Shown here piece by piece: positions 3,201-62,519 of a stretch of DNA of 64,000 nt (positions are counted from its first letter, which is position 1; each line of letters starts with the position of its first letter). The position numbers were made by a program, and so were the translations under genes. A model generated the notes under the pieces. It worked only from the letters and a program-made list of their open reading frames with translations, searched no databases and was not told the DNA's origin. The stretch is from Trichobilharzia regenti. Lineage: Eukaryota > Platyhelminthes > Trematoda > Strigeidida > Schistosomatidae. The stretch spans positions 172,731,509-172,795,508 of the forward strand of contig OX235262.1 of assembly GCA_944472135.2 (NCBI GenBank). The letters are read 5' to 3'.

Positions 3201-5224
3201 AAGAGATTTCTGGCAATGAGCGAACCAACCAGGGACCAATTGTGCAGCAAATATGCAGGAAGAAATGGAGGTGGATTGGCCATAGTTTGAGAAAACCATC
3301 AAGTGACATCACACTCCAGACTTTCTCTTTCTCGAGTGGAACCCGAAAAGGAAGCTTTGAGTTGGTCGTCATTGTAAGGGTGACATGGAGTGGAGGAGGT
3401 GATGTGAAGAGGAGATGAAAGTATGTGGTCAGACGTGGAGCCAGCTGAAAACGTTGGCAGAGGACCGAATGCAATTGAGACGTGAGGATGAAGCCCTATT
3501 TTCCTCTCGGAACCAAAGCAGATAATAGTGTGATGAGAGCAGGCTGCTAGCCAATTGGTAGACATTAATTTACGTCAATGTCTAGGTCACCAATATTGGC
3601 TGTGAGAAAATATGAACAAGGCTGATTCAACAACCAATCACAGCAGACTTAACGTGGGCAAATAAGATTCGCAGATATATGGCTTAACTTTTCGAGAAAC
3701 CAGAAACAACCAATCAGAAGACTGTGTTTGTCTGCTTGAATAAGCGATAATAATGTACATGAAATATATACAAATACTTGCTGACTTCCGTAATAAAGCG
3801 ATCTGTTGCCGGCCCTTGTCTTCTGTTGTTACAATAGTAATAATACTGGTAATAATTAATGTGTAACCTAAAAGACAGTTAAATCGCTTACACTGTGTTA
3901 GCATAATTAACTTTATCGCTTTTAATTTCACCTTTACAATGTTGACTTTCACACGCTTTTCTTTTTCAGTGATGAATTCACCAAAGAAGTGATCCAGAGT
4001 CTTTCTAATCCATATTACAGCTTGAATAACAGAAATGATGGGGAAGAGGTGAGTCTGATTTCAACATGATAATTTTCACTGTTCTTCAACACACTACTTG
4101 TAAAATACAGTGTGCATGTGTTAGAAAATAAAATTTAGTATGAATGTGTTGATACGTATAAATATGTGTTCAGTACAGTAACTCGCATATAACATTGACT
4201 GACGACTGCAATATATATATATATATATATATACCACGAATTGATAGAAGTTGGAATTCATGGTCTGGTCGTCGTATCAGGATCCAGTGGCTAAATGGGT
4301 TATGGAGTAGCTTTGTGACCTGAAGGTCCTGGGTTCGAACCCCAGTAAGTGCCTACAGATGTGGGTGAGCATTCCTAAAGAGTATCAGACTTGAATGGAA
4401 CAGCTGTGCCTGTTGGTTCAGTGGTTCTGAAACCGATGAAATGGGGATCTGTGCAGAAATGATTTATCTTGCCATGACGCAGAGAAACACAAATTAATTG
4501 ACATCACAGCCAGTGACGCTACTTGTTTGTGGTCCGAATAATTTAGGTCCACTAATATAGGAGGTGTTCAACATGAACTGTTGCTAGATCTTGAACTTTT
4601 CCCTGTGGGATGCAATCATGCTCCTCTGGTTACATCAAGTGGAGTTTGTCCTTGACATTTAGAGTTGAAAATAGCAACTACAAAGTACTCCGTGAAACTC
4701 GTATATTTTGAATAGTCGCACTAATTTTAGGTTGTTTGAAAACTATTTCACACCAGTCAGGTGGAACTATGATTAAGTATTCTAATATTGGAAATCAAAG
4801 TTAAAGTTCAAATGAATTTCCATAAATCTGCTTAACCCACACTAGAATGCACAAATAAAATGAAGTGAGAAGTGGTTTAATGCGAATGTTTGTTTGAGCG
4901 ACAAAATGCCAAGGTAACTTCAATTCACTCATCTCTTTGCAATGATTATACGTATGAGTGCCTACAATGAGTTGTGTTGGAAAAGTGATCCATTTAATAT
5001 TAATGTATTTCTGTGTATTATTTCAGATCAACATGACTGATATGAGATCATACTTAAGTACCACAGTGCCTGAACAAAATATTCTCCTCACATAAAGTTC
5101 GATTTATTTATGCGAATAATTATAAGCTACTTAATTACGTGGATAGTAGCTATTGCAATTCGGGCGATTATTTTTGATTCCCCATGAATGAATGTAACTG
5201 GTTCTGCTGTCAAAAATCTTATCT

Positions 5225-8519: not shown

Positions 8520-9687
8520 GCCGGTCGATGCTGACGGTGTCTTCGCGGCGCTCTTTGTCTAAGAAAAAGGATTTATCCATACGTTTAATTAGGTTATACG
8601 GTCCGTCGTATGGTGGATCCAGAGGTCGACGCACAGAGTCACGACGAACAAATACATGTGAAGAAGTTTTTAAACACGGGTGAACAAAGACATCAATGGA
8701 CTGTTGACAAAGGGGAGCAAGTTAAACTGAACGAATTGCGTTTGTAAGCCTGCTGACGTATGAAGCGTGATCTACCGCTAGTGGTAAGCTCGAGGGAGAA
8801 ACAAATTCACCAGGCGGTAGTAAAACCAGCATCGGTTTTCAGGGTGTTTTGTATCCCTAGGAGAACTAAAGGAAGGAATTCAGTCCAATGGGTATTGTTT
8901 GCAGCTGACAAACCAGCTTTCAGCTGTCTGTGTAGACGTTCTATCATACCATTTGCTTGAGGATGGTAGGCTGTTGTTCGGAAACGCATGTAACCTATGA
9001 TTTTAGTCAGGGAGAAGAATAAGCAGCTTTCGAATTGCCGCCCGCGGTTGATTGTTATGGAGGATGGGCGATCCATCTCTCCACGAAGACGCGTGTGACT
9101 GTTTCAGCAGATACGTCCTTGAGGGGTCCTACTTTAGGTCATCATGTGAGGCGATCGATGCAAGTCAGAATATAGGTATATCCATGGGGTTCAGGAAGGG
9201 GTCCAACCAAATCTATATGGACGTGTTCGAAACGAGCGTCAGGGAGAAGAAAGATGCCAAGTGGGCTTTTGGTGTGTCTTATCACCTTGCACTTTTGACA
9301 AGCTAAGCACTTGTGTACCCATTCCCTTACTTCTTTATTCATGCCAGGCCAACAAAACCAACTAGTTACGAGCTTGACAGTAGTTCGAATACCTGGGTGA
9401 GATGAGCCATGCAACATATTCAAGACGTTACGGTGATAACCTTCAGGCACAATGGGGCGAGGAGTTTTAGTGGAGATGTCGCATAGGATAGTATCTCTTC
9501 CCATACCTAAGTGTTTCTCGGCTAATTTCATTTTTGTTTTCGACAACTCATGCTGAAGCTCGGTATCTTCTTTTTGAAGACGAACCAGTCTTACAAGGTC
9601 TATGCCGTCGATTCGGGTGAGGGAACAAACGCGTGACAAGGCATCTGCCACAGTGTTGTTCACTCCGGATACATGGCGACTATCCAC
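8520..9687 (-). pseudogene. pol: Gypsy pol: integrase (arm 1)
   Basis: The HHCC zinc domain is intact (HGSSHPGIRT...WVHKCLACQKC). The first catalytic Asp is in HIDLVGPLP. The second is lost (TINRGRQFES; arm 2 keeps TIDRG). The Glu is in NGMIERLHRQ. A frameshift separates the part at 8807-9076. A GPY/F-like end (PYDGPYNLIKR) follows near 8570-8620. Confidence 0.8.
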
Positions 9688-9717
9688 TGTAAACTGTGAA
9701 ACGTAATCTAGTTATCG

Positions 9718-10569
9718 TTATTCCCTAGGTGAATACTTATCTGAGGTTGAGTTCAGAGAGTACGTTAAAGGTTTGTGATCAGTGAAAATTATGAATTCAC
9801 GACCCTCCACTGAATGGCGAAAATGACGTACAGCACAGTACATAGCCAGAAGTTCTCTGCCGAATGTGCTGTACCTCGTTTCAGCTAATTGAAGGCGCCT
9901 CGAGAAAAAGGCGAGTGGTTGCCACTGTTTGTTAACTAGCTGTTGTTGAACTGCGCTGACTGCAGTGTCTGATGCATCAACCGAGATAATTAACAGTGCC
10001 GTTGGATCCTGATATATTAGAAGTGTGGTAGCCGCAATAGCTTTTTTAACTTGAGTAAAAGCATTTCGGGAATGTGCGTCGAGTTCTATAGACTTGTTAT
10101 TCCCTCGAAGGAGGTCTGTCAATGGCTGAATCAGAGAGGTACAGTTGGGAATAAATCGTCGGTAATAACTTATCAAGCCGTTAAAATTGCGGAGACATTT
10201 CACTGTCTGTGGCTCTGAAAAGTTCAGTATCGCCTCGACTTTAGTAGCCAGTGGATGAATGCCCTTGCAGTAGCCGAGAAAGTCGAGTGAGTCAATGGCT
10301 ATCTGATACGTTTGAATATTGATGGTAACACCATGTTGGCGTAATCTTTCCATTGCCAGGTCCAAGTGCCTAAGGTGAGTTTCCTTGTCTGGATTGGCAA
10401 TGAGGAAGTCGTCTAAGTATGTGTATACAAAGTTGAGACCGCGAAATACTTCACCGATGAAGTGTTGGAATGTTTGGGCTGCATTCCTGAAACCAAATGG
10501 CATACATAGAAATTCAAAAGGTTCGAAAGACGTAATGATAGCCGTTTTCGGAATATCTTCTCGTGCCAT
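9718..10569 (-). CDS. pol: Gypsy pol: reverse transcriptase and RNase H (arm 1)
   Basis: RT shows MPFGFRNAAQTFQ and the catalytic YLDDFLIA. RNase H shows DASDTAVSAV and TDHKPLTY. A stop after YSPRE, shared with arm 2, separates it from integrase. Function: copies element RNA to DNA and removes the RNA strand. Confidence 0.9.
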   Translation of the reverse strand: MAREDIPKTAIITSFEPFEFLCMPFGFRNAAQTFQHFIGEVFRGLNFVYTYLDDFLIANPDKETHLRHLDLAMERLRQHGVTINIQTYQIAIDSLDFLGYCKGIHPLATKVEAILNFSEPQTVKCLRNFNGLISYYRRFIPNCTSLIQPLTDLLRGNNKSIELDAHSRNAFTQVKKAIAATTLLIYQDPTALLIISVDASDTAVSAVQQQLVNKQWQPLAFFSRRLQLAETRYSTFGRELLAMYCAVRHFRHSVEGREFIIFTDHKPLTYSLNSTSDKYSPRE

Positions 10570-10637
10570 CGAGATTTGGTTTTACGCTTTAATCAAGTCG
10601 ATTTTAGAGAATATAGCCGCGCCAGATAAAGTCTCCG

Positions 10638-11389
<752 letters not shown>

Positions 11390-11390
<1 letters not shown>

Positions 11391-11503
11391 TAACGCGTGC
11401 TAGCGGGATAGTTTTCCGCAGACTTTGAGACATTTCCGAAGTTACAAAGTTTGTGGAAACATTCCGCTTCCTGGCCATAAATATTGTGGTACCAGCACCA
11501 GTC
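11390..11503 (-). CDS. CHCC Gag zinc knuckle in a shifted frame (arm 1)
   Basis: This frame begins just after gag and reads CWYHNIYGQEAECFHKLC: C-x2-H-x8-C-x4-C. The order C-H-C-C, instead of the usual CCHC, is the hallmark of the CsRn1/Kabuki clade. It is offset +1 from gag after A6-CCC-TGA and overlaps the start of the pol frame by -1. Confidence 0.7.
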
Positions 11504-11552
11504 AGGGTTTTTTCAGAGAACGCGGCTTGGACTTAGATCGACCAGGTGAGTT

Positions 11553-12218
11553 TCACCGTTGAGGGGATTTCGGACGACGGTAAGAGAAATCACAAGGCAT
11601 TGTTGACCTAAACATCTGCTGGATGGAATTGCATAACTCTATCACTGTAGTATCCTTATCTGAAGTGTGTTTCACCACCGAGCATATTTCAGGAACTGAC
11701 CGTTTAGTTATTTCTAGAATCTTATCTACAGAAATAGCTAAGTCATTCTTAATAACACCCTGAGGTGTCACAAGTACAGTCTGCATGGACTGTGGCAGCT
11801 TGGATAAGAAGAGTTCTCTGAAAAGTCCTTCATCGAACTGACTTTGGCCAACAACTTCTCTCATTCTTGTCAGCATGCTCATGGCTGACTGATCCCATAG
11901 CTTGATATTACGAAATAATTCGTCCAGACGTTGTCGATCCGTGAGTACGTTTCTCCTGAGGAGGGATGCTTTGAGCAACTCGTAAGAGTTACTTACCTCG
12001 GGACTCGACATCTGTGCAGTTACACACTTGCTGAATTCCCGCGGTAGGGCGTGAATAGCTGCGTGGAACTTTAAACGTTGGTCGGTTATCCCATGCTCAC
12101 AAAAATCAGATTCAGCTATCTGAAACCACGTTTCAGCATTATCTGGCCAGCATGGTACGAGCTGAGTGGTTTCGGCAGTTGAGCGAATACGAATGACCTT
12201 GGGACTAGGATCACTCAT
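11553..12218 (-). CDS. gag: Gypsy Gag (arm 1)
   Basis: A 221-codon frame from ATG with the capsid-like segment PYWPDN-type (here PCWPDNAETWFQ), followed by the basic KSPQR region and a TGA that is CGA in arm 2. The capsid fold assembles the retrotransposon particle. The CHCC knuckle that should follow is in another frame (11390-11503). Confidence 0.8.
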   Translation of the reverse strand: MSDPSPKVIRIRSTAETTQLVPCWPDNAETWFQIAESDFCEHGITDQRLKFHAAIHALPREFSKCVTAQMSSPEVSNSYELLKASLLRRNVLTDRQRLDELFRNIKLWDQSAMSMLTRMREVVGQSQFDEGLFRELFLSKLPQSMQTVLVTPQGVIKNDLAISVDKILEITKRSVPEICSVVKHTSDKDTTVIELCNSIQQMFRSTMPCDFSYRRPKSPQR

Positions 12219-12310
12219 GACGAAATGTTTGCGATTACAATATAGTACAAGAACATATACAAAAGGAACGAACTCACCGGGTTTATCTGCGTATTAAGTG
12301 AAGATGGAGT

Positions 12311-14794: not shown

Positions 14795-15045
<251 letters not shown>

Positions 15046-15184: not shown

Positions 15185-15400
15185 AGTTTGTAGGGATTTT
15201 ATTTGTGAAAAGTCCGATCACGGTTTGATGTCAGTTAGGGAAGCAGAGAAAAAACCAGGGATTACTGGAAAGCTGGTCAATACTGGTTTGGGAACCCATG
15301 GAAATAGAACACAGGACCTTCTGGTCACACGGTCAAGCTTGTTGACCATTTTACTATTCCAGCCGAATCCAATGGCTTGTAAGTATGGGTTGTACTCGAG
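15185..15400 (-). mobile_element. SM-alpha-like SINE, old copy
   Basis: On the minus strand: tRNA-like head ('accagaaggtcctgtgttc'), then the body seen in the 25183 dimer ('aactgacatca', 'ctttccagtaatccc'). The hammerhead core has decayed. Mirror 31925-32135. Confidence 0.65.
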
Positions 15401-17599: not shown

Positions 17600-20500
17600 G
17601 TTAGTTAGTAAAGTGTTATTCATCTTTGCATATATGATGATATGGTTTAGCATTCATTAATGTATGCAATGTTATGTAATTGGAAAAAATCGATTATTTT
17701 AGTAATTCTGTGTTTAATTTGTTACTTAATGACATTGAACTCTTTCCTGCTTACTAACAGCAAATATGCATGTCTTTCTTATTTATTCCATTTGACGATG
17801 AACTGTCAAACAGGATTAATAAACTGTCTCCCCCGTTTTTATTCAAGAGATTCCTAGTGAGGTTAGATTTTATTACAAGTCGCCATCCATTAAACCACGC
17901 TTTACTTATGAAAGGAGATGGTCATGTCAAATTCGTTTATGAATTAATACAAGAACCTATTATAGTTGTCCCACGGTAACTTTTATCGGGTTATCTATCT
18001 ATGCTCGCTTAGTAAAGCCTAGTCAATCCATACATTTCTTTTAAAGACAATCTTACAGGTCGTGGTTTAGATTTTCATGTCAAGCATTCATATTCATGAC
18101 CAGCAGATATTTACTATCCGTATTCATTAGTTCTTGGTTATAATTTACCTTCTAAGGTAGGGATGAAAGTGTTTTCGAAAATAAACAAGTAGATGAAAGA
18201 GGTTAGATGAATGAAGGCAATCGGCAAGCCTTTGACCTAGGTTTCGCGCTAGTTGACACTCAACAGTCAGCAAGGCGTATCTGCAGTCACCATGAAGGAG
18301 CTCATGTCCCTTTTGTGGTTCAAAAGTGCGTCAGCCAATACCGTTTGCAGTTAGCGGATGTTACCACAGCGCTATTCAGGATTGCGATTGACCTCCATAC
18401 TGTAGGACTGCACGAAACAGGGAACTAGACTTATCACAATAGTTACTAGTGCCCAATCGAAGATGAAAGAAGTATTTTATCGATTTACCTTAAGGACATG
18501 CTTCTCTCTTCAATTCGACATCCAGTAAGACTCAGCATATGCGCACGCCTACAATGTTTCTACCCTATTCAACCCAAATCCTTCGAATGTGTTATTTGGA
18601 ATTTAAGGCTAATTTACTCCTTATTTTCATAGATAATTCCCCCCTCCCCCACATATTAGACTACTCCGTGTATTCAGACTGATTTGAGATTTTCTCTCGG
18701 AAAATTACCACACGTGGGGATCACTTAGAAGGATACCAATACTGTAACTGATTTCTAACACAATCGAAATATTCACCCAAATTGAACTGTTGTCATATTT
18801 TTCAGAGGTTGAACGCAGATATGATGCAGATTTATTTTTGAAGGGAACAGAAACCTCACCGAATAATATCACTGGGGTGACGACAAACGAAGCAGTTAAC
18901 AAATCATCAAGAATATACGGTTACCACAAACTGTATTTCCACGCTTCTATGATCTACAGCTTCAAGTTCACATTCATGGAAATGCAGACAGTAAAGACTT
19001 CTATTTCAATGGATCTGTCACCATAGAGATTCAGTGTTTAGCAGCAACTGCAGAAATCTTTATTCATGCTTATCCTAATCTTAATGTCAGTATGGATCAA
19101 ATCAAAGTGAGCGATTTGATATCAAGGGAAGTTTATTTTTGTTTTTTGTTACTTTTACAACTGTAAAATGATTCGTTGTTCCCTGTTGATTTCAGTCGTA
19201 TCCCTTTTCATTGTTCATGCTTCTCAATTAGGCTATGACGGTAACATTCGTTATGTATGAAGTTGTCGTCCATGCTGGACTCAATAGTCGTCAGTTGACA
19301 ATAACACGTCACTTATTAATTCTGGTCATCCAAGTATTCACAATAAATGCTTTTGGCAAGTCTCACACACTGCAGCCCGGTGACTTATTCCTGAAAGCTG
19401 CTTGTAACCATGCAATGAATTATGGATTACTTTTGTTTGATTAGATTGCCATGAGATCACTTAAATTATTGGAATTACACACATTCTGAGCTTAAACTCT
19501 AAACTCATATTACTACTCGTAAGTGAAGTCCATCTAACATTTTTCTGTGTATGCGAAGCTGTTAGTGCAGTAATAATTCATTGAAGGAATAATCTGCCTT
19601 ACACAGTGTTTATATCGTAGATAGAATAAACTTATCTTTCTACGACAAAGGGAAGTGGAGTGGAGACAGAAAGGAACCTTATAGTTTCAGCTCTTTGCAG
19701 ATTGAATTAAGGACTGGTAAATTTGCAGGAGTTGTTTTTAACAAATTTCCGTCTACTATATCCCCCTTGATTGAGTCATATTTGAGGGATTTGAAACTGA
19801 ACTTATCTGAATGTTAACCTTTCGACAATGTCATGAAATAGTTCAGGAGTGAACCGTCTGAATTGAGTGTAAAGTTGCACTGATCAGAATCGCCAATATT
19901 TCTCAGTGTGCTAACAAGAACAAAGCTCCGATCAAAGGCTTCGTGTTTGATTAGAACTTCAAGTCAAACACTGGCCTTTCTCTATAGATTAACCTCGTGC
20001 AGTTTACTGTTCCCCAATTAATCGTTACTTTTACAAACAATATTCAGAGATGAATACATAAAATTCTATGCTTTACAATTATTAATGAAATGTACTCAGT
20101 TGAAATTCCAATTTTAGTCTACTTCATTCATTCTCAGATCTTCATTCCTTTAATGATGAACAACAGACTTTGTTGAGTTTTTACTGGGTAAATTCAAATT
20201 ATACTCAATGTTAAATGACAGATACCCACATCAAGTAATTAAAATGTGGGCGACGATGTGCAGTAGTCTTTTTTCTATGAATAACTCAGTGTGACTCACT
20301 TTCACGACTCCCCTCCATCTTGTCTCGTTTTGTATAGATATTTTCAGACGATAAGGAAGATTCAAAGAAGACGGAAATTCCAATACAGACGATATCCTAC
20401 GATAAAGGCGCTGAATGGTACCATATACAGTTAAAAGATGCACTACAGCCCAATGCAAGTTATAAACTGATATTTGATCAATTTAATTCTTCACTAAACT

Positions 20501-23500
20501 ACGAACCGCTAGGATTTTATCTGAGTCGGTATGCAGAAAATGGAACCTATATAAGTAAGTACTTTTATTCGAGATATTTAATAATCATCGGACTATTTGA
20601 TTTGAGTCTCTGTTGAATATTTTAACTTAGTTCAGCTCATAGTGACGTTCCCCATTTGGATGAGTTTCAAAGCAAACCTTATCATTCATAGAATAATGTG
20701 AAGTTATACGCCACTAGAGTACTCGGATTCTATTCCTATATTAAGCGCGATTCATAATGTACAGAGTGGGAGAGTGCCAGTAGTGCACTGACAGATTTTA
20801 CTCTGTCTTTCACACATGAACAAAGAAGGTGTGACTAGAACTTCATAACTCTTTACGGCTTAATTACCTACCATAATAAAACTTTGTTTCATAGTATGTG
20901 TTAACACAGTGCGGAAATTCCCAACGTGTTTAGTTCCACAATATTTCGTCTTCGTACAGGATTTACACATAAGGTAGTAATCCGAAGTTTATCATGTGAA
21001 GTAGTGTTGTTGTATATGAAGACAGGGTCAATTCTGCATATTTTGTCTTCGTTTGCCTCAAGAAATGCACATGTCCATGAGTTGGTGTAACACTCCTCTG
21101 ATATAAGTGCATGATTAAAATGCAGAAGACATTAAGCAACATCTCGATGAATGAATATTCTGGTAGCCCATCAATTTTAGCAGGCCGTCGCCCCGAACAC
21201 AAATATCATCTTCTTAATGCAAACGTCAGCTTGAAACAGCATCATATTCTATCGAATTTTAATCTGATGTTCAGTAAAATCTATGGAGATGTTCAAGACA
21301 GAGTAATTTAATTTGAGTCTGTTGAGTATCAATCAGTTATTTCATATTTCCAAAATTTTAGCATCATTTTTCATTCACATCACTGTCCATCTCATCCCAC
21401 TTGAATTTAGCAGTTGGATTATTTTTCAAAAATTCTAATGAAGTGTAACTATCACTTAGTGTTATTACTGTCAGTATCTTCTCAGGATTGCCAACCTTCA
21501 AAATGAAAACTAATTTTAAGAACGTCACTGACCAATTTTTCGAAATTTACTCCTCGTATTTCTCATGTCAAGCAGTAATCCAGATATACTGGAGAAGATT
21601 TGTGGCCCATGTTGATACTTTGGTGTAGTAGCATTCTCTGAGCTGGTCTCAATGGCTACATTGTCTAAGAGGTCGTCTTGTAATTGAGAGGTGCTGGTTT
21701 CGAATCCCGTTGGGTGTACACTGCTACTCACACTAGATCAAGCAGCGAATAATCGTGAGTATTACTGAAAGTCGGTAAACTAGGTTGAAACATCTATCAT
21801 CATACACTGTAGTTGGTTGTTAGTATTTTGTTGAATGATTCAGTGACGTGATTAATATTATTATTATTACTATTGTTCCCTTGGGTTCCAAGTTGAACAT
21901 ATGCACATTTCCACTTCTATTTTCTGCTTTCCTGTTTGGCTGGGCCCACGATTGCCCGTAACATGTCATCTCCTCCCCCAACTCATACAATCTCTTCCAT
22001 GTCACCCTCGCACCAACTACACACTCGTCGCTTCCCATTGGGATTGCACTCGATTGATGGCCTGAATTGAGCGCGATGTCATTCGACGGTCTCCTCAACG
22101 TGCGTCCGATCAATCCATCTCCATTTTCTTCTAAATATTTGTTGATCGATAGGTGCTTGATTAATTTGTCGGCGGCCGGCGTTTCGTGTTATTAATTCTT
22201 CCTGGACATCTCATCTCCAGTATAGAGCAGTTGTTGACAAAAGTCTGCAAACCGTTGGCAAATGCTTTTCGGTGATGTGAAGCAAAATGAAAATTCGTCT
22301 ATTTCCGATCAATCAGATACTAGAAAAGTGATAAATGGATGATGCCTGCCTGCCTTTCATTCTTGCAATGAAAACGCTACTCTTGTTGACAGTGAGTGAC
22401 ATATACATGATAGATCAATGGGACTCATGTCTTATTACCAGATCATTCAAAAAGGCACACACTGGAGACTGTTTCATGTGTAGTGAGAGCAGGCTGCTAG
22501 CCAATTGGTAGACATTAATTTACGTCAATGTCTAGGTCACTAATATTGGCTGTGAGAAAATACGGACAAGACTGAGTCAACAACCAATCACGGCAGACTT
22601 AACGTGGGCAAATATGATTCGCAGATATATGGCTTAACTTTCCGAGAAGCCAGTCACCTTGAGCAAGAAACAAACAATCAGAAGACTGTGTTTGTCTGCT
22701 TGAATGAGCTATAATAATGTGCATGAAATATAAGTAAATACGTGCTGATTTCCGTAATAAAATTATCTGTTGCCGGCCCTTGTCTTCCGTTGTTACACAT
22801 GTATCTGAAGTAACCGGAAAAGCAGTGAAAATCAATGTCTCGGTTTTTAGTCCGAATAAATCATAATTTAAATTTGCAAACTGACTAAGTTTCGTGAAAT
22901 TATACACTCACACTCCCCAGGTAAGTACGTAAAATTAAATCTAACCACAGATTTCCAGGAAAATCCGATTATTGAATCTGCACAGACTCGAAGATATGTT
23001 AGTGGTCGTATATGTTAACAGCGTCTAATGTAAATATCCTGTTCTTGTCAATGCAAACACATTTTACAAAGACACAGTAGTGGTTCATAATTGATTGCTA
23101 ATTCATGACGCAATTAAGTAGTATGTTTTCCCCCAAAGCAATCTAAGTGTCACAATAAATCAATAAATTAGGAAAAAGTAGCTAAACACCTGCGGTATCT
23201 TTGTCACATTCGATAGGAATATCTTTTGGAAGCCTACTTCAAATTCAACATGTTCAGCATGTTTGCATTGGGAATACATCTTGATTCAACAGAACATGAC
23301 TGAGATTGTTACTGAGATTTTCCTTGAATTTTCGAAACAACTTTATTCCTTCAATTTGTATTACGATTTGTTTATCGTGATGTGCTCATTTCTCAGCCTC
23401 TCTCTGTCTCTCTGTCTCCTTTCCTAACTGGTTATACACTAAAATTCACTTGACATTTTCACGTTAACACACCAACGTGTATGCTGAGGTATTTTGTAAT

Positions 23501-23704
23501 TATCATGAATTGCTCACTTTATTGCTCCCCTCTATCTTATGTAAAAGTGAGTAGAATAATTAACATCGAATCATTCACATACACTTTCAATTAACTCGAG
23601 GTACATCGTATTTATTTCAGGTACTTAGCAAGCACACAGTTTGAGCCAACATATGCAAGACGTGTATTTCCTTGTTGGGATGAACCTGGATTTAAGGCCG
23701 TGTT
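17483..23704 (+). CDS. M1 aminopeptidase gene B, exons 1-4, truncated by gap (arm 1)
   Basis: Exons: 17483-17599 (signal peptide), 18806-19106, 20338-20558, 23621-23704 (cut by N). They encode the M1 N-terminal beta-sandwich domain up to the conserved TQFEPT..RR.FPCWDEP.FKA block that begins the catalytic domain. The product is predicted to be secreted or membrane-bound. Gene B follows gene A in the same direction, so this is a tandem pair of M1 genes. The arm 1 copy has single-base deletions in exons 1 and 2 where arm 2 is intact, probably sequencing errors in homopolymers. Confidence 0.88.
17743..18195 (+). pseudogene. Unidentified intronless pseudogene-like stretch in gene B intron 1
   Basis: One frame stays protein-like for about 150 codons, interrupted by a few stops: [19 protein letters not shown], then [19 protein letters not shown], then [13 protein letters not shown] and [17 protein letters not shown]. 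Arm 2 lacks one of the stops. It looks like a decayed retrocopy or gene fragment. I cannot name the parent. Confidence 0.4.
18205..18460. repeat. Dispersed repeat R copy
   Basis: Shares 'gacctaggtttcgcgctagt' and neighbouring segments with 56325-56545 and 28870-29110. An open frame of 73 codons inside is shared by copies but shows no known domain. Confidence 0.55.
18806..19106 (+). CDS. Gene B exon 2: M1 N-terminal domain
   Basis: Acceptor 'atttttcag', donor 'gtgagc'. It encodes the linker ([16 protein letters not shown], with an N-glycosylation sequon) and the start of the M1 N-domain; [20 protein letters not shown] is visible in arm 2. Arm 1 lost one A near 18908, shifting the frame. Confidence 0.85.
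19107..20337 (+). other. Gene B intron 2
   Basis: AT-rich intron without a recognised element; it is mirrored in arm 2 at 27015-28208. Confidence 0.4.
20338..20558 (+). CDS. Gene B exon 3: M1 N-terminal domain
   Basis: Acceptor 'ttttgtatag'; the exon begins [11 protein letters not shown] and contains [12 protein letters not shown] and [13 protein letters not shown], typical of M1 N-domains (L-x-x-F..G..GFY-S-Y). The phase requires the donor at 20559 (GTACTT). The better donor at 20555 (GTAAGT) would break the frame because of a TA insertion absent from arm 2. Confidence 0.85.
20559..21640 (+). other. Gene B intron 3, first part
   Basis: No recognised element. The empty target site of the arm 2 SINE dimer lies near 21340 ('tttcatatttcc'). 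Confidence 0.5.
21640..21790 (+). mobile_element. SM-alpha-like SINE, internally deleted
   Basis: Box A-like 'caatggctacattg' and box B 'ggtttcgaatccc' are present. Compared with arm 2 (24600-24905), the region holding the ribozyme relic is missing. Confidence 0.65.
21860..22270 (-). mobile_element. RTE-type 3' fragment
   Basis: Minus strand reads [20 protein letters not shown] and the K-W-R-W-I-D block, the C-terminus of the RTE reverse transcriptase. It is the mirror of 24205-24545, the innermost matching part of the duplication. Confidence 0.75.
22480..22797 (+). mobile_element. Solo LTR with 4-bp target duplication CATG
   Basis: 318 bp, TGTAGTG...GTTACA, flanked by CATG on both sides. 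Same family and orientation as 3529-3833, in gene B intron 3. No mirror copy because arm 2 starts further in. Confidence 0.85.
22798..23620 (+). other. Gene B intron 3, last part
   Basis: AT-rich with a short CT-rich stretch near 23399-23425; no element recognised. Confidence 0.4.
23621..23704 (+). CDS. Gene B exon 4 (partial): conserved M1 block
   Basis: Acceptor 'tttatttcag'. The exon reads [20 protein letters not shown] and continues EPGFKAV into the gap. T-Q-F-E-P-T-x-A-R-R-x-F-P-C-x-D-E-P is one of the most conserved M1 segments, so the family call is firm. No copy exists in arm 2. Confidence 0.92.
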
Positions 23705-24204
23705 NNNNNNNNNNNNNNNNNNNNNNNNNNNNNNNNNNNNNNNNNNNNNNNNNNNNNNNNNNNNNNNNNNNNNNNNNNNNNNNNNNNNNNNNNNNNNNNN
23801 NNNNNNNNNNNNNNNNNNNNNNNNNNNNNNNNNNNNNNNNNNNNNNNNNNNNNNNNNNNNNNNNNNNNNNNNNNNNNNNNNNNNNNNNNNNNNNNNNNNN
23901 NNNNNNNNNNNNNNNNNNNNNNNNNNNNNNNNNNNNNNNNNNNNNNNNNNNNNNNNNNNNNNNNNNNNNNNNNNNNNNNNNNNNNNNNNNNNNNNNNNNN
24001 NNNNNNNNNNNNNNNNNNNNNNNNNNNNNNNNNNNNNNNNNNNNNNNNNNNNNNNNNNNNNNNNNNNNNNNNNNNNNNNNNNNNNNNNNNNNNNNNNNNN
24101 NNNNNNNNNNNNNNNNNNNNNNNNNNNNNNNNNNNNNNNNNNNNNNNNNNNNNNNNNNNNNNNNNNNNNNNNNNNNNNNNNNNNNNNNNNNNNNNNNNNN
24201 NNNN
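23705..24204. other. Assembly gap of exactly 500 N
   Basis: The run is exactly 500 N, a placeholder length used by scaffolders rather than a measured size. It cuts aminopeptidase gene B in the middle of an M1 exon on the left. On the right it starts inside an RTE fragment that matches arm 1 at 22211, so about 1.5 kb of arm 1 has no mirror copy. Confidence 0.98.
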
Positions 24205-24545
24205 ATGTCCAGGAAGAATTAATAACACGAAACGCCGGCCGTCGACAAACTAACCAAGCACCTATCGATCAACAAATATTTAGAAGAAAATGGAGATGGA
24301 TTGACCGGACGCTCGTTGAGGAGACCGTCGAATGACATCGCGCTCAATTCAGGCCATCAATCGAGTGGAATCCCAATGGGAAGCGACGAGTGTGTAGTCG
24401 GTGCGAGGGTGACATGGAAGAGATCGTATGAGTTGGGAGAGGAGATGACATGTTACGGGCAATCGTGAGCCCAGCCAAACAGGAAATCAGAAAATAGAAG
24501 TGGAAATGTGTATTTGAAGCCCTATGTTCCACTTGGAACCCAACC
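24205..24545 (+). mobile_element. RTE-type 3' fragment (arm 2)
   Basis: Begins at the gap with the [10 protein letters not shown] region and ends in 'gaagccctatgttccacttg'. Mirror of 21860-22211. Confidence 0.75.
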
Positions 24546-24599
24546 TAGTTTACTGACTTTCAGTGATGCTCACGATTATTCGCTGCTTGATCTAGTGTG

Positions 24600-24905
24600 A
24601 TCAGCATTATTATAAAGCCGTTATTTTCATTTCCTCTAGTTCGTTTATTTTAAATACCGACATTTTGGAGAGAAAATCACCTACTGAAGATCTTATTACA
24701 CGCTGAAGTGTCTACCATATTACTGATTACTGATTTTTGGGTGTAGTTGTGCTCTATGAGGTGAGTATTGCACAACTGTTTCCTCTTAGTCTGCGACTCT
24801 TCGGCAGTGTACACCCAACAGGATTCGAAACCAGCACCTCTCAATTACAAGACGACCTCTTAGACAATGTAGCCATTGAGACCAGCTCAGAGAATGCTAC
24901 TACAC
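24600..24905 (-). mobile_element. SM-alpha-like SINE with decayed hammerhead
   Basis: Minus strand carries box B 'ggtttcgaatcc' and a ribozyme relic around 24760-24816: the core is CCGAAGA instead of CTGANGA, GAAAC is kept, and stem I is partly kept. The arm 1 copy lacks this part. Confidence 0.65.
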
Positions 24906-25429
24906 CAAAGTATCAACATGGGCCACAAATCTTCTCCAGTATATCTGGATAACTGCTTGACATGAGAAATACGACGAGTAAATTTCGAAAAATTGGTCAG
25001 TGACGTTCTTAAAATTAGTTTTCATTTTGAAGGTTGGCAAATCTGAGAAGACACTGACAGTAATAACACTAAATGACAGTTACACTTCATTAGAATTTTT
25101 GAAAAATAATCCAACTGATAAATTCAAGTGGGATGAGATGGATAGTGATGTGAATGAAAAATGATGCTAAAATTTTGGAAATCTGATGCTCACTAGTGAC
25201 TGGCCCTATTCAGGCAGTTAACCTGGGGTTCTAGTGGGAAGCCGTGACCAGTAGGGTACAGCAGGTTGAAGATGAGGCAGTAACTCATCGAAGAAGACAT
25301 TGCGAAGTGGTCGCGCTATGTCGTGAACTGGCAGAAGTTAGAATTCAAGGACCATTGGATCGGGTCCCAGTGGCTCAATGGTCTACGAGCTCGCCTTGTA
25401 ACCAGAAGGTCCTGGGTTCGAATCCCGGT

Positions 25430-25485
25430 GGGTGCGTACTGCTGAGGAGTCCCAAACTAGGACGAAACAGCTGTCCAGTACTCCC
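25430..25485 (+). ncRNA. Hammerhead ribozyme, type I, copy 1
   Basis: Stem I GTACTG (25436-25441) pairs with CAGTAC (25476-25481), with an outer GGG/CCC beyond an internal loop. Core CTGAGGA fits CUGANGA, position 7 being free. Stem II is GTCC (25449-25452) with GGAC (25460-25463) around CAAACTA. GAAA is at 25464-25467. Stem III ACAG/CTGT has no loop. Predicted cleavage follows C25475. Minimal stem III is typical of the schistosome SM-alpha ribozyme, which works best as a dimer. Confidence 0.9.
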
Positions 25486-25830
25486 AGGTTTTCCAGTGGT
25501 TCTCTAACTGATGTCAGCTCATGATTAAATCCTCCATGCAATCAAACAAAATCCCTACAACAAACCAATACTTAAAAATTCATCTGATGCTCACTAGTGA
25601 CTGGCCCTATTCAGGCAGTTAACCTGGGGTTCTAGTGGGAAGCCGTGACCAGTAGGGTACAGCAGGTTGAAGATGAGGCAGTAACTCATCGAAGAAGACA
25701 TTGCGAAGTGGTCGCGCTATGTCGTGAACTGGCAGAAGTTAGAATTCAAGGACCATTGGATCGGGTCCCAGTGGCTCAATGGTCTACGAGCTCGCCTTGT
25801 AACCAGAAGGTCCTGGGTTCGAATCCCGGT

Positions 25831-25886
25831 GGGTGCGTACTGCTGAGGAGTCCCAAACTAGGACGAAACAGCTGTCCAGTACTCCC
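25831..25886 (+). ncRNA. Hammerhead ribozyme, type I, copy 2
   Basis: Same elements as copy 1, exactly 401 bp downstream; predicted cleavage after C25876. Both ribozymes in one transcript could pair through their palindromic stem III sequences. Confidence 0.9.
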
Positions 25887-26799
25887 AGGTTTTCCAGTGG
25901 TTCTCTAACTGATGTCAGCTCATGATTAAATCCTCCATGCAATCAAACAAAATCCCTACAACAAACCAATACTTAAAAATATGAAATAACTGATTGATAC
26001 TCAACAGACTCAAATTAAATTACTCTGTCTTGAACATCTCCATAGATTTTACTGAACATCAGAAAGCTTTCGATTAAAATATGATGCTGTTTCAAGCTGA
26101 CGTTTGCATTAAGAAGATGATATTTGTGTTTGAGGCAGCGGCCTGCTAAAATTGATGGGCTACAAGAATATTCATTCATCGAGATGTTGCTTAAAGTCTT
26201 CTGCATTTTAATCATGCAGTTATATCAGAGTAGTGTTACACCAACTCATGGACATATTCAATCGCCTTTCAACAGAACATTGTGCATTTCTTGAGGCAAA
26301 CGAAGACAAAATATGCAGAATTGACCCTGTCTTCATATACAACAACACTACGTCACATGATATACTTCGGATTACTACCTTATGTGTAAATCCTGTACGA
26401 AGACGAAATATTGTGGAACTAAACACGTTGGAAATTTCCGCACTGTGTTAACACATCGTATGAAACAAAGGTTTATTATGGTAGGTAATTAAGCCGTAAA
26501 GAGTTAAGAAGTTCTAGTCACACCTTCTTTGTTCATGTGTGAAAGACAGAGTAAAATCTGTCAGTGGACTACTGGCACTCTCCCACTCTGTACACTATGA
26601 ATAGCGCTTAATATAGGAATCGGATCCGAGTGCGCTAGTGACGTATAACTTCACATTATTCTATGAATGATAAGGTTTGCTTTGAAACTCGTCCAAATGG
26701 GAACGTCAGTATGAGCTGAACTAAGTTAAAATATTCAACAGAGGACTCAAATCAAATTAGTTCCGATGATCATTAAATATCTCGAATAAAAGTACTTAC

Positions 26800-27014: not shown

Positions 27015-29833
27015 CTATACAAGTTGAAACAAGATGGTGGGGAGTCGTAAAAGTGAGTCAAACTGAATTATTCATAGAAAAGAGACTACTGCACATCGTC
27101 ACCCACATTTCAATTACTTGATGTGAGTGTTCATCATTTAACATTCAGCCTTATTTGAGTTTAACGGGTAAAAGCTCAACAAAGGATGTTGTTCATCATT
27201 AAACGAATGAAAATCTGAGAATGAATGAAGTAGACTAAAATTAGAATTTCAACTGAGTACATTTCTTTAATGTTTTCAAAGCATAGAATTCCATGTATTC
27301 ATCCTTCAATATCGTTTGCAAAGTGTTGAATAATTGGTGGACAGTAAACTCCACAATGTTAATCTATAAGGGAAAGGTCAGTGTTTGACATGAAGGTACT
27401 ATCAAGCACTAATCCTTTTATCGAAGCTTTTATCTTGTTCAGTGTTGCAGCCTTACATCCAGTTCAGATGGCTTACTTTTGAAATATTTCATGACATTGT
27501 CGAAAGGTTAACATTCAGATAAGTTCAGTTTCAAATCCCTCAAATATGACTTAATCAAGGGGGATATAGTAGACGGAAATTTGTTAAAAACAACTCCTGA
27601 AAATTTACCAGTCCTTAATTCAACCTGCAAAGAGCTGAAACTATAAGGTTCCTTTCTGTCTCCACTCCACTTCCCTTTGTCGTAGAAAGATAAGTTTATT
27701 CTTTCTACGATATAAACACTGTGTAAGGCAGATTATTCATTCAATGAATTACTACTGCACTAACAGCTTCCATACACAGAAAAATGTTAGATGGACTTCA
27801 CTTACGAGTAGTAATATGAGTTTAGAGTTTAAGCTCAGAATGTGATCTCATGGCAATATAATCAAACAAAAGTAATCCATAATTCACTGCATGGTTACAA
27901 GAAGCTTTCAGGAATAAGTCATCAGGCTGCAGTGTATAGGGCCTCCAAAAGCATTAACTGTGAATACTTGGATGACTATAATTGATAAGTGACGTGTTAT
28001 TGTCAACTGACGACTATTTAGTCCAACATGGACGACAACTTCATATATAATGAGTGTTACTGTCATAGCTTAAATGAGAAACACCAACAATGAAAACGAA
28101 GTATGACAGTACTTCTGTCGTGAAATCAACAGGTAACAACGAATCATCTTACAGTCACACAGATCAAAGAAAACCAGAATAAACTTCCGTATACATCGAA
28201 TCACTCACTTTGATTTGATCCCTACTGACATTAAGATTGGGATAAGCATGAATAAAGAGTTCTGCAGTTGCTGCTAAACACTGAATCTCTATGGTGACAG
28301 ATCCATTAAAATAGGAGTCTTTAGTATCTGCATTTCCATGAATGTGAACTTGAAGCTGTAGATCATAGAAGCGTGGAAATACAGTTTGTGGTAACCGTAT
28401 ATTCTTTGATGATTTGTTAACTGCTTCGTTTGTCGTCACCCCAGTGATATTATTCGGTGAGGTTTCTGTCCCTTCAAAAATAAATCTGCATCATATCTGC
28501 GTTCAACCTCTGAAAAATATGACAACAGTTCAATTTGAGTAAATATTTCGATTGTGTTAGAAATCAGTCACAGTATTGGTATCCTTCTAAGTGATCCCCA
28601 CGTGTGGTAATTTTCCGAGAGAAAATCTCAAATCAGTCTGAATACACGGAGTAGTCTAATATGTGGGGGAGGGCGGAATTATCTATGAAAATAAGTCGTA
28701 AATTAGCCTTAAATTCCAAATAACACATTCGAAGGATTTGGGTTGAATAGGGTAGAAACATTGTAGGCGTGCGCATATGCTGAGTCTTACTGGATGTCGA
28801 ATTGAAAAGAGAAGCATGTCCTTAAGGTAAATCGATAAAATACTTCTTTCATCTTTGATTGGGCACTAGTAACTATTGTGATAAGTCTAGTTCCCTGTTT
28901 CGTGCAGTCCTACAGTATGGAGGTCAATCGCAATCCTGAATAGCGCTGTGGTAACATCCGCTAACTGCAAACGGTATTGGCTGACGCACTTTTGAACCAC
29001 AAAAGGGACATGAGCTCCTTCATGGTGACTGCAGATACGCCTTGCTGACTGTTGAGTGTCAACTAGCGCGAAACCTAGGTCAAAGGCTTGCCGATTGCCT
29101 TCATTCATCTAACCTCTTTCATCTATTTGTTTATTTTCGAAAACACTTTCATCCCTACCTTAGAAGGTAAATTATAACCAAGAACTGATGAATACGGATA
29201 GTAAATATCTGCTGGTCATGAATATGAATGCTTGACATGAAAATCTAAACCTCGACCTGTAAGATTGTCTTTAAAAGAAATGTATGGATTGACTAGGCTT
29301 TTCTAAGCGAGCATAGATAGATAATCCGATAAAAGTTACCGTGGGACAACTATAATAGGTTCTTGTATTAATTCATAAACGAATTTGACATGACCATCTC
29401 CTTTCATAAGTAAAGCGTCGTTTAATGGATGGTGACTTGTAATAAAATCTAACCTCACTAGGAATCTCTTGAATGAAAACGGGGGAGACAGTTTATTAAT
29501 CCTGTTTGACAGTTCATCGTCAAATGGAATAAATAAGAAAGACATGCATATTTGCTGTTAGTAAGCAGGAAAGAGTTCAGCGTCATTAAATAACAAATTA
29601 AACACAGAATTACTAAAATAATCGATTTTTTCCAATTACATAACATTAAAAATACAAATGAATGCTAAATCATATCATCATATATGCAAAGATGAATAAC
29701 ACTTTACTAACTAACCCATTGGTGCATTGTAGCCATAATAACGAAGGCTGTGAATACCAGTCGATGTCACTTGATTGTTCCACAGAAAGACGAAAACCAA
29801 ATAGACTGTCGTTAACAACACTTTCAAAGACAT
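26800..29833 (-). CDS. M1 aminopeptidase gene B, exons 1-3 (arm 2 copy, 3' partial)
   Basis: Exons 29716-29833, 28209-28509 and 26800-27014 on the minus strand. Exon 1 is full length here (118 nt, phase 1). Exon 2 has lost one A in 'gaaggga', while it retains the base missing from arm 1. Exon 3 has the good GTAAGT donor in the correct phase. Together the arms show a sound gene whose frame breaks are each confined to one arm. Exon 4 falls in the gap. Confidence 0.88.
28209..28509 (-). CDS. Gene B exon 2 (arm 2)
   Basis: Encodes [20 protein letters not shown] and the [17 protein letters not shown] segment of the M1 N-domain. A one-base deletion near 28473 breaks the frame upstream of residue 60. 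Confidence 0.85.
28870..29110. repeat. Dispersed repeat R copy (arm 2)
   Basis: Mirror of 18205-18460. Confidence 0.55.
29120..29590 (-). pseudogene. Unidentified pseudogene-like stretch (arm 2)
   Basis: Mirror of 17743-18195 with the same frame. One of the arm 1 stops reads as Lys here, but others are shared, so decay began before the arms diverged. Confidence 0.4.
29716..29833 (-). CDS. Gene B exon 1 (arm 2): signal peptide
   Basis: [18 protein letters not shown], then [14 protein letters not shown], ending in phase 1 at GTTAGT, which fits exon 2. This is the correct reading of exon 1. Confidence 0.8.
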
Positions 29834-31924: not shown

Positions 31925-32135
31925 AACCCATACTTACAAGCCATTGGATTCGGCTGGAATAGTAAAATGGTCAACAAGCTTGACCGTGTGACCAGAAGGT
32001 CCTGTGTTCGATTTCCGTGGGTTCCCAAACCAGTATTGACCAGCTTTCCAGTAATCCCTGGTTTTTTCTCTGCTTCCCTAACTGACATCAAACCGTGATC
32101 GGACTTTTCACAAATGAAATCCCTACAAACTTACA
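31925..32135 (+). mobile_element. SM-alpha-like SINE, old copy (arm 2)
   Basis: Mirror of 15185-15400; tRNA-like head and body visible, ribozyme core lost. Confidence 0.65.
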
Positions 32136-32279: not shown

Positions 32280-32522
<243 letters not shown>

Positions 32523-34998: not shown

Positions 34999-35016
34999 TG
35001 GTGAGCCCAACCGCAA
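34999..35016 (+). promoter_or_regulatory. Primer-binding site, tRNA-Trp-like (arm 2)
   Basis: TGGTGAGCCCAACCGCAA starts one base after the terminal repeat; it resembles the 3' end of tRNA-Trp. Confidence 0.65.
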
Positions 35017-35109
35017 ACTCCATCTTCGCTTAATACGCAGATAAACCCGGTGAGTTCGTTCCTTTTGTATATGTTCTTGTACTATATTGTAATCGATATT
35101 CATTTCGTC

Positions 35110-35826
35110 ATGATTGATCATAGCCCCAAGGTCATTCGTATTCGCTCAACTGCCAGAACAATTCGGCTCACACCATATTGGCCAGATAATGAGGAAACGT
35201 GGTTTCAGATAGCTGAGTCTGATTTTAGTGAGCACGGGATAACCGATCAACGTTCAAAGTTCCACGCAGCTATTCATGCCCTACCGCGGGAATTCAGCAA
35301 GTGTGTAACTGTACAGATGTCGAGTCCCGAGGTAAGTAACTCGTACGAGTTGCTCAAAGCATCCCTCCTCAGGAGAAACGTACTCACGGATCGACAACGT
35401 CTGGACGAATTATTTCGTAATACCAAGTTATGGGACCAGTCAACCGTGAGCATGCTGACAAGAATGAGAGAGGTTGTTGGCCAAAGTCAGTTCGATGAAG
35501 GACTTTTCAGAGAACTCTTCTTATCCAAGCTGCCACAGTCCGTGCAGACTGTACTTGTGACACCTCAGGGTGTTATTAAGAATGACTTAGCTATTTCTGT
35601 AGATAAGATTCTAGAAATAACTAAACGGTCAGTTCCTGAAATATGCTCGGTGGTGAAACACACTTCAGATAAGGATACTGCAGTGATAGAGTTATGCAAT
35701 TCCATCCAGCAGATGTTTAGGTCAACCATGCCCTGTGATTACTCTTACCGTCGTCCGAAATCCCCTCAACGGCGAAACTCACCTGGTCGATCTAAGTCCA
35801 AGCCACGTTCTCTGAAAAAACCCTGA
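35110..35826 (+). CDS. gag: Gypsy Gag (arm 2)
   Basis: Open from ATG 35110 to TGA 35824-35826, including the basic tail (RRNSPGRSKSKPRSLKKP) that is cut by a stop in arm 1. The capsid-like region PYWPDNEETWFQIAESDF matches the retrotransposon gag pattern. Confidence 0.85.
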   Translation: MIDHSPKVIRIRSTARTIRLTPYWPDNEETWFQIAESDFSEHGITDQRSKFHAAIHALPREFSKCVTVQMSSPEVSNSYELLKASLLRRNVLTDRQRLDELFRNTKLWDQSTVSMLTRMREVVGQSQFDEGLFRELFLSKLPQSVQTVLVTPQGVIKNDLAISVDKILEITKRSVPEICSVVKHTSDKDTAVIELCNSIQQMFRSTMPCDYSYRRPKSPQRRNSPGRSKSKPRSLKKP

Positions 35827-35938
35827 CTGGTGCTGGTACCACAATGTTTATCGCAAGGAAGCGAAATGTTTCCATAAACTTTGTAACTTCGGAAATGTCT
35901 CAAAGTCTGTGGGAAACTATCCCGCTAGCACGCGTTAG
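35825..35938 (+). CDS. CHCC Gag knuckle in +1 frame (arm 2)
   Basis: Follows gag after A6-CCC-TGA; it reads CWYHNVYRKEAKCFHKLC and stops at 35936. Same C-x2-H-x8-C-x4-C spacing as arm 1. Confidence 0.7.
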   Translation, partial: DWCWYHNVYRKEAKCFHKLCNFGNVSKSVGNYPASTR

Positions 35939-36255
35939 TGGCAACCACCGTCGGTGGCACTAGCCGCCTACTTTGCACCCATGATGTGATCAGCCAGACT
36001 CGATATTTAGTCGACACAGGAGCCGAAGTCAGCTTCCTTCCTGCCACGGCAGTAGATCGACAGAAGGAACCCACCTTCAACTTACAGGCTGCAAATGGAA
36101 AACCGATCGCAACTTTTAGTAGGAAATACGTTCACCTGAACGTAGGTTCACGCAAAATAATTCAATGGACTTTCCTTCCCACTGACGTCACAATGCCCAT
36201 CGTTGACACGGACCTACTGACACGGACCTACTTAATCATCATGATTTACTCGTAG
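35938..36255 (+). CDS. pol: Gypsy pol: aspartic protease (arm 2)
   Basis: Active-site motif RYLVDTGAEVSFLPAT. The frame is broken near 36215-36228 by a 14-bp tandem duplication (gacacggacctact twice), after which pol resumes in another frame. Confidence 0.85.
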   Translation: MATTVGGTSRLLCTHDVISQTRYLVDTGAEVSFLPATAVDRQKEPTFNLQAANGKPIATFSRKYVHLNVGSRKIIQWTFLPTDVTMPIVDTDLLTRTYLIIMIYS

Positions 36256-36329
36256 ACGTCCGTCGAAAACGACTGATTGACAATACTAATAGTCTGTCTA
36301 TCAAAGGCATCACCTACATAGACCCCAGC

Positions 36330-37622
36330 TTGTCACTAGTCAAGATTGAAGCAATACTTGATCCAAATTTTCAACCGATTTTTTATAAATATCCACAACC
36401 TAATTGCCCGTCTAACGATCTACCGTGCATAACCAGCAATGTTATGCACCGTATCATAACCTCAGGACAGCCCGTGACATCTAGAGCACGACGACTTGCT
36501 CCTGACAAACTAAGAATCGCTAGAAATGAGTTCAACAATATGCTCACCCTTGGCATCATTCGACCATCGAATAGCTCATGGGCATCCCCATTGCATATGG
36601 TACCGAAAAAGGATAGCAACGATTGGCTACCCACTGGTGATTACCGGCGAGTGAATGCCAAAACAACCCCTGATTGCTATCCATTCCCTCATATAAACGA
36701 CTTTACGGCGACTTTATCTGGCGCGGCTATATTCTCTAAAATCGACTTCATTAAAGCGTATAACCAAATCCCGATTGCACGAGAAGATATTCCGAAAACG
36801 GCTATCATTACGTCTTTCGGACCTTTTGAATTTCTACGTATGCCATTTGGTTTCCGGAATGCAGCCCAAACATTCCAACACTTCATCGGTGAAGTATTTC
36901 GCGGTCTCAACTTTGTATACACATACTTAGACGACTTCCTCATTGCCAGTCCAGACAAGGAAACTCACCTTAGGCACTTGGACCTGGCAATGGAACGATT
37001 ACGCCAACATGGTGTTACCATCAATATTCAAAAGTATCAGATAGCCATTGACTCACTCGACTTTCTCGGCTACTGCAAGGGCATTCATCCACTGGCTACT
37101 AAAGTCGAGGAGATACTGAACTTTCCAGAGCCACAGACAGTGAAAATTCTCCGCACTTTTAACGGCTTTATAAGTTATTACCGACGATTTATTCCCAACT
37201 GTACCTCTCTGATTCAGCAATTGACAGACCTTCGAGGGAATAACAAGTCTATAGAACTCGATGCACCTTCCCGAAATGCTTTTACTCAGGTTAAAAAAGC
37301 TATTGCGGCTACCACACTTCTAATATATCAGGATCCAACGGCACCATTAAGTATCTCGGTTGATGCATCAGACACTGCAGTCGGCGCAGTTCAACAACAG
37401 CTAGTTAACAAAGACTGGCAACCACTCACCTTTTTCTCGGGGTACCTTCAATTAGCTGAAACGAGGTGCAGCACATTCGGCAGAGAACCTCTGGCTATGT
37501 ACTGTGCCATACGTCATTTTCGCCATTCAGTGGAGGGTCGTGAGTTCATAATTTTTACTGATCACAAACCTTTAACGAACTCTCTGAACTCAACCTCAGA
37601 TAAGTATTCACCTAGGGAATAA
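36330..37622 (+). CDS. pol: Gypsy pol: reverse transcriptase and RNase H (arm 2)
   Basis: 430 codons open: FQPIFYKYPQPNCPS, VPKKDSNDWLPTGDYR, MPFGFRNAAQTFQHF, catalytic YLDDFLIAS, then RNase H with DASDTAVGAV and TDHKPLT. It ends at the TAA after YSPRE shared with arm 1. Confidence 0.92.
   Translation: MSLVKIEAILDPNFQPIFYKYPQPNCPSNDLPCITSNVMHRIITSGQPVTSRARRLAPDKLRIARNEFNNMLTLGIIRPSNSSWASPLHMVPKKDSNDWLPTGDYRRVNAKTTPDCYPFPHINDFTATLSGAAIFSKIDFIKAYNQIPIAREDIPKTAIITSFGPFEFLRMPFGFRNAAQTFQHFIGEVFRGLNFVYTYLDDFLIASPDKETHLRHLDLAMERLRQHGVTINIQKYQIAIDSLDFLGYCKGIHPLATKVEEILNFPEPQTVKILRTFNGFISYYRRFIPNCTSLIQQLTDLRGNNKSIELDAPSRNAFTQVKKAIAATTLLIYQDPTAPLSISVDASDTAVGAVQQQLVNKDWQPLTFFSGYLQLAETRCSTFGREPLAMYCAIRHFRHSVEGREFIIFTDHKPLTNSLNSTSDKYSPRE

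Positions 37623-40227: not shown

Positions 40228-62519
<22,292 letters not shown>

Follow-up and report, generated by a model that had tools for sequence, protein, structure and literature searches.

The stretch of DNA analysed here, 64,000 nucleotides in length (the window), carries at 25183-25980 two identical hammerhead-bearing units arranged head to tail, and this raises the question of how both came to occupy the same site: together, copied perhaps from an RNA circle, or one after the other. On the current view, what jumps in a retrozyme is a DNA copy, several units long, of a small RNA circle and, in the literature covered, the step from circle to genome has the standing of a model. A site that is available in both filled and empty form is informative here, given that it supplies the length of the insert, the positions of its edges and the bases at its joints, and can therefore separate copying of a circle from template jumping and from later duplication. 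Comparison of such a pair within the window favours, on balance, a 798-bp insertion of two identical tRNA-like, SINE-like hammerhead units that most likely arose by one retrotransposition event, as a dimer of the retrozyme type.

Results

The filled and the empty site

Positions 1-47276 of the window form an inverted repeat whose arms, each some 22-23 kb long, are ~4% divergent. A gap of 500 N (23705-24204) lies near its axis, 1 kb from the dimer, and given that homology between the arms begins at the first base past this gap, the arms may represent two haplotypes that were scaffolded head to head, or else form a true palindrome. A chain of five pieces (>88% identity, in order, among the 10 pieces over 150 bp listed) gives a divergence of 3.7%, or 807 mismatches in 21639 aligned bases. 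A second alignment gives 4.2% (917 in 21828); the 12% found in its first segment (104 in 868) is too high because of a stretch, 260 versus 156 bp long (24544-24803 and 21725-21880), that scarcely aligns between the arms. Homopolymer stretches (141/141 and 149/135 bp) lie outside both counts.

In the left arm the site is empty: 21335-21362, on the minus strand, reads GCTAAAATTTTGGAAATATGAAATAACT and contains a single AAAT (21346-21349). Relative to this sequence the right arm holds exactly 798 extra bases between two copies of AAAT, at 25179-25182 and 25977-25980 of the plus strand, and this insertion (25183-25980, +) is absent from the other arm. Among the eight indels of at least 15 bp listed between the arms it alone exceeds 50 bp; the next in size, of 48 and 43 bp, both fall inside the one poorly aligned stretch. 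A deletion between AAAT repeats in the left arm, instead of an insertion in the right, is possible but less simple. A segmental duplication that included flanking sequence was rejected, since the array begins and ends precisely at the break in the empty site.

The initial annotation had described two identical units with a 401-bp period, and this description holds, with unit 2 amended to 397 bp. Tandem Repeats Finder, run on the 64-kb window, reports one array with a 401-bp period at 25181-25980, with 100% matches and no indels, and direct comparison of 25183-25579 with 25584-25980 finds 397 of 397 positions identical. When the boundaries are placed by comparison with the empty site in the opposite arm, unit 1 occupies 401 bp (25183-25583, +) and ends in TCAT, which forms the inner junction (25580-25583), and unit 2 occupies 397 bp (25584-25980, +), being four bases shorter because the TCAT that closes unit 1 is missing at its outer end. 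The spacing between the two 397-bp repeats is accordingly 4 bp, and the GC content of unit 1 is 48.9%, below 50%. The inner joint reads CTTAAAAAT-TCAT-CTGATG (joint AAAAATTCATCTG), the left outer edge AAAT-CTGATG and the right outer edge CTTAAAAAT-ATGAAAT; the TC or TCAT of the inner junction is found at neither outer edge. The edge repeat, AAAT, is at most 4 bp long, and a 4-bp match at the edges has a chance of ~0.005 at this base composition. The left AAAT may be a target-site duplication or a priming match; should the right AAAT be a copy of the target site, the end of unit 2 moves to 25976.

Hammerheads, Pol III boxes and the tRNA-like domain

A type I hammerhead is present at 25436-25481 (+) in unit 1 and at 25837-25882 (+) in unit 2, with predicted cleavage after 25475 and 25876 respectively. 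Both match RF00163 at 53.5 bits, where the gathering score is 34, and with E = 4e-11 over the whole window these matches are far beyond chance. The consensus hammerhead that had been claimed for each unit is thus borne out in all its named parts, namely the core CTGAGGA, stem II GTCC/GGAC, GAAA, stem I GTACTG/CAGTAC and a palindromic stem III region (ACAGCTGT), and the two cut sites proposed with it agree with the motif. The Pol III boxes that had been assigned to each unit are likewise found, an A-box-like sequence at 25371-25383 (+) and a B box, GGTTCGAATCC, at 25415-25425 (+), both repeated 401 bp on (25772-25784 and 25816-25826). A tRNA-like domain occupies 25363-25435 (+) in unit 1 (RF00005 match at 25364-25436; copy at 25764-25836) and the hammerhead follows directly 3' of it. 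Given that its RF00005 score of 19.6 bits falls under the cut-off of 29, this region is taken to be a decayed tRNA; ARAGORN called no tRNA. The units thereby combine a tRNA-related Pol III region with an adjacent type I hammerhead, as Smα-type elements do. Just 3' of the hammerhead lies TTTT (25489-25492, +; copy at 25890-25893), a possible Pol III stop.

A strict motif scan of the window found hammerheads in the two units only. Rfam matches with E up to 5 add two that are below the cut-off, one of 25.4 bits in a remnant at 24765-24810 and a weak one of 20.6 bits at 56343-56408.

Older copies and the age of the insertion

The dimer units aside, the window contains eight matches to the family, starting at 4238, 15350, 21645, 24883, 31966, 43037, 49634 and 57603, and as three pairs among these are one locus seen in both arms, they represent five independent older copies. 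None of the eight reaches the Rfam hammerhead cut-off and none includes the first 144 bp counted from 25181, so that the 5' third of the unit is unconfirmed by copies in the window. Towards the other end, the copy at 15350 extends into the tail, and similarity in a further piece (49567-49621, E = 0.33) continues as far as CCAATACTT, close to the 3' end of the insertion. Judged from these sequences, the dimer is a young member of an older family. One locus of older copies, present in both arms at 15188-15350 (-) and 31966-32085 (+), has lost the first part of the hammerhead and kept its flanks. Searches for relatives elsewhere gave no match in viral contigs and none in genome contigs, a result that says nothing about flukes, as these collections are described as holding viruses, bacteria and archaea.

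The recent insertion proposed in the initial annotation is supported by the empty counterpart in the other arm and by the absence of differences between the units, against ~4% between the arms. Had the units shared the age of the arms, their 397 positions should show ~15 differences, and the probability of finding zero is 3e-7, an estimate that assumes similar rates and no homogenisation through gene conversion or assembly polishing. The simplest reading is that the insertion came late relative to the divergence of the arms.

Predicted folding

The predicted 401-nt RNA between both cuts (25476-25876, +) was folded as a circle, and 58% of its bases are predicted to pair, compared with a mean of 61% for 100 shuffles, at an energy z-score of -2.5. 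The predicted fold of the monomer therefore falls short of the pairing of >70% that is reported for retrozyme RNAs in the accessible part of PMC4918200. The 46-nt hammerhead motif is predicted to favour an alternative fold by 5.9 kcal/mol, or by 6.8 kcal/mol with longer flanks. Given that the Rfam hammerhead consensus, used as a control, also favours an alternative fold, by 5.0 kcal/mol, this preference tells little of whether a competing fold blocks the ribozyme, a reading that was set aside.

Discussion

Origin of the tandem dimer

A transcript that ran across both units would be expected to cut itself after 25475 and 25876 and to free the 401-nt RNA, whose ends would likely be joined by a host ligase to give a circle. 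The reverse transcriptase of an autonomous element, possibly Penelope-like, could then begin at the AAAT end and copy this circle almost twice (2 x 401 minus 4), and the resulting copy would be inserted, AAAT being either a duplication of the target site or a short stretch of pairing from which the nicked target primed synthesis. One late insertion of a dimer fits the published retrozyme model, in which, as far as the accessible text sets it out, the RNA cuts itself, is circularised and is then reverse-transcribed through more than a single turn (PMC7761336). That the insert is the footprint of a reverse transcriptase that made nearly two turns of a circular hammerhead RNA of 401 nt is suggested tentatively, as a reading that could well be wrong, on the basis of a length of 2 x 401 minus 4, ends that lie 4 nt apart on the circle and the survival of the empty site. 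If it is true, the ends of the element would be set by the priming position on the circle and not by the ends of the transcript, and blood flukes would have a SINE family of tRNA origin that spreads via RNA circles.

The edges of the insertion bear on what was copied. They correspond to unit positions 1 and 397, whereas the hammerhead cuts after unit position 293, ~100 nt away; it is therefore improbable that a linear self-cut monomer was copied directly, and the template was likely either circular or an uncut multimer, unless a template jump linked two uncut RNAs. By our own arithmetic, a random 5' stop on a circle would fall within 4 nt of the start ~2% of the time, and hence the stop must have been defined or the template linear.

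Template jumping is a behaviour of non-LTR enzymes, and this raises the possibility that target-primed reverse transcription jumped between two linear, uncut RNAs, with the bases at the joint untemplated and no circle involved. Such a jump would likewise account for insertion in one step, the extra bases at the joint and the abutting ends. It nevertheless seems unlikely on two counts: two uncut RNAs would be required although each bears a high-scoring self-cutting motif, and these RNAs would have to start ~170-180 nt upstream of the point, close to the A box, at which Pol III would be expected to start. A single copy may have been inserted and later doubled by a tandem duplication at the DNA level, with 2-4 bp of filler at the new joint, which would yield identical units and the same outer edges and would not require an RNA circle. 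Given that TC or TCAT is absent from both outer edges, however, the filler becomes a necessity, whereas insertion of the dimer in one step needs none, and this argues against simple later duplication of a single copy. In addition, both edges of the array are the element's own insertion edges. Later duplication is accordingly regarded as improbable.

The copy number could also be an error of assembly, the true site holding one unit or a longer array, and it is the case that the number of units rests on an assembly with visible flaws. The 500-N gap lies 1 kb away, and the plus strand contains four A-runs of 117-139 bases (10978-11113, 14852-14990, 32334-32467 and 47493-47609). The run at 10978 occupies the place of 149 bp of ordinary sequence in the other arm, and those at 14852 and 32334 lie at matching points of the inverted arms, yet both read A; all four look like assembly artefacts. 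The identity of the units may, moreover, stem from polishing. Against this, both outer edges match the empty site exactly and the inner joint is unlike either edge, its TCAT not being expected from an error, so that a miscounted array is thought quite unlikely. There is as little probability in an ordinary Pol III SINE, with no part played by RNA circles, whose short transcript (~25355-25492) merely has its 3' end trimmed by the hammerhead: the internal A and B boxes, the TTTT just after the hammerhead and the predicted pairing of the 401-nt RNA, which is not raised, would all suit it, but the short transcript would be without the first ~170 and the last ~85 nt of the unit, and both were inserted twice.

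Insertion of the dimer in one step from a retrozyme-like RNA must itself be reconciled with how that RNA would be transcribed. At the TTTT after the first hammerhead, Pol III could terminate without reaching unit 2. Two Peptidase_M1_N pieces, 18921-19103 (24.0 bits, just under the cut-off of 25.8) and 23595-23702 (41.6 bits), likely exon pieces of an M1-family aminopeptidase, bracket the left-arm site, and the dimer site apparently sits in an intron of this gene. As the right-arm counterpart of the first piece lies on the minus strand near 28376, the dimer is apparently antisense to the aminopeptidase gene, and from this position the host mRNA would carry the wrong strand of the element. Taken together, the TTTT and the antisense position mean that a dimer transcript would need read-through of TTTT or another start.

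Relation to known elements

The comparisons that follow are drawn from the accessible portions of the papers cited. Animal retrozymes are described as tandem type I hammerhead repeats, from dimers upward, with platyhelminths named among their carriers; their RNA circles have been demonstrated in coral, mussel and axolotl (PMC7229834). The dimer resembles these metazoan non-LTR retrozymes in having a type I hammerhead in each unit, no LTR and a GC content below 50%, and its 401 and 397 bp, head to tail, fall within the 150-450 bp given for such tandem units. It departs from them in several respects. Their target-site duplications, when present, are typically longer than 4 bp (PMC7229834), whereas the edge repeat here is at most 4 bp; no promoters are described for them in the available text of PMC7761336, whereas Pol III-type boxes are present here; a TTTT just after the ribozyme is a further departure from the animal retrozymes described; and their self-pairing is higher than the 58% predicted here, their circles having been shown, where a circle here is a prediction. 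That the dimer works like a metazoan non-LTR retrozyme is thus suggested at the level of resemblance. The initial annotation had proposed a candidate retrozyme producing small circular RNA, and of this the likeness to published tandem dimers stands, whereas the TTTT, the 58% pairing and the short edge repeat weigh against its simplest version.

Among schistosome elements, Smα and Sjα (Ferbeyre 1998, Laha 2000), known here via later papers, likewise join a type I hammerhead to a tRNA-related, SINE-like region. Schistosoma mansoni has >38000 hammerhead hits and a tRNA-Gln-derived SINE (PMC2770079), and schistosome repeats with a tRNA are mentioned, and a putative S. mansoni retrozyme RNA drawn, in PMC4918200. 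The hammerheads of W elements are active and the Smα-like W36.2 unit is 335 bp long (PMC8490949), as against 401 bp for the unit here, a comparison made by description and likely across genera.

An LTR-type element was also considered. Plant LTR retrozymes resemble the dimer in their hammerhead dimers and 4-bp target-site duplications, and a filled/empty pair has been shown for a citrus retrozyme; their hammerheads, however, are of type III and stand in LTRs around a central region with a primer site and a polypurine tract (PMC4918200), which has no counterpart here, the copies being 4 bp apart. Helenus elements, which are non-autonomous LTR elements of animals, share tRNA-like sequence in direct repeats and 4-bp duplications, but their internal region also holds a primer site and a polypurine tract (PMC10886601), where only 4 bp separate the repeats of the dimer. 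As the internal region is lacking, an LTR-type element of either sort was rejected.

A literature search, conducted mostly among papers outside subscription, found no paper on a hammerhead in Trichobilharzia and, for hammerhead ribozyme, retrotransposon and empty site in combination, work on giant transposons only. The kind of element is already published, as schistosome hammerhead SINEs and animal retrozymes; what is new is the filled/empty pair for an animal dimer, in what is probably a schistosomatid fluke close to Trichobilharzia, to judge by the best matches of two retroelement remnants in the window. Extending the comparison to every copy within a single fluke genome would make an inexpensive test.

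Other elements in the window

A reverse transcriptase remnant is present at 58346-59326 (-), with a best match of 91% to a Trichobilharzia szidati protein and a GIY-YIG match of 20.7 bits, just under the cut-off of 22.6. From the arrangement of reverse transcriptase and GIY-YIG, it is presumably Penelope-like. Penelope-like elements have been proposed as partners, according to the accessible part of PMC7761336, and the presence of this remnant in the window counts in favour of a retrozyme-type origin for the dimer. Each arm of the inverted repeat also contains the remnant of a Ty3-like retrotransposon, at 9142-12293 (-) and 35005-37622 (+), with matches to reverse transcriptase, RNase H and an integrase zinc finger; the best match is to Trichobilharzia regenti at 85%, and that to T. 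szidati reaches 85% over 63% of the query.
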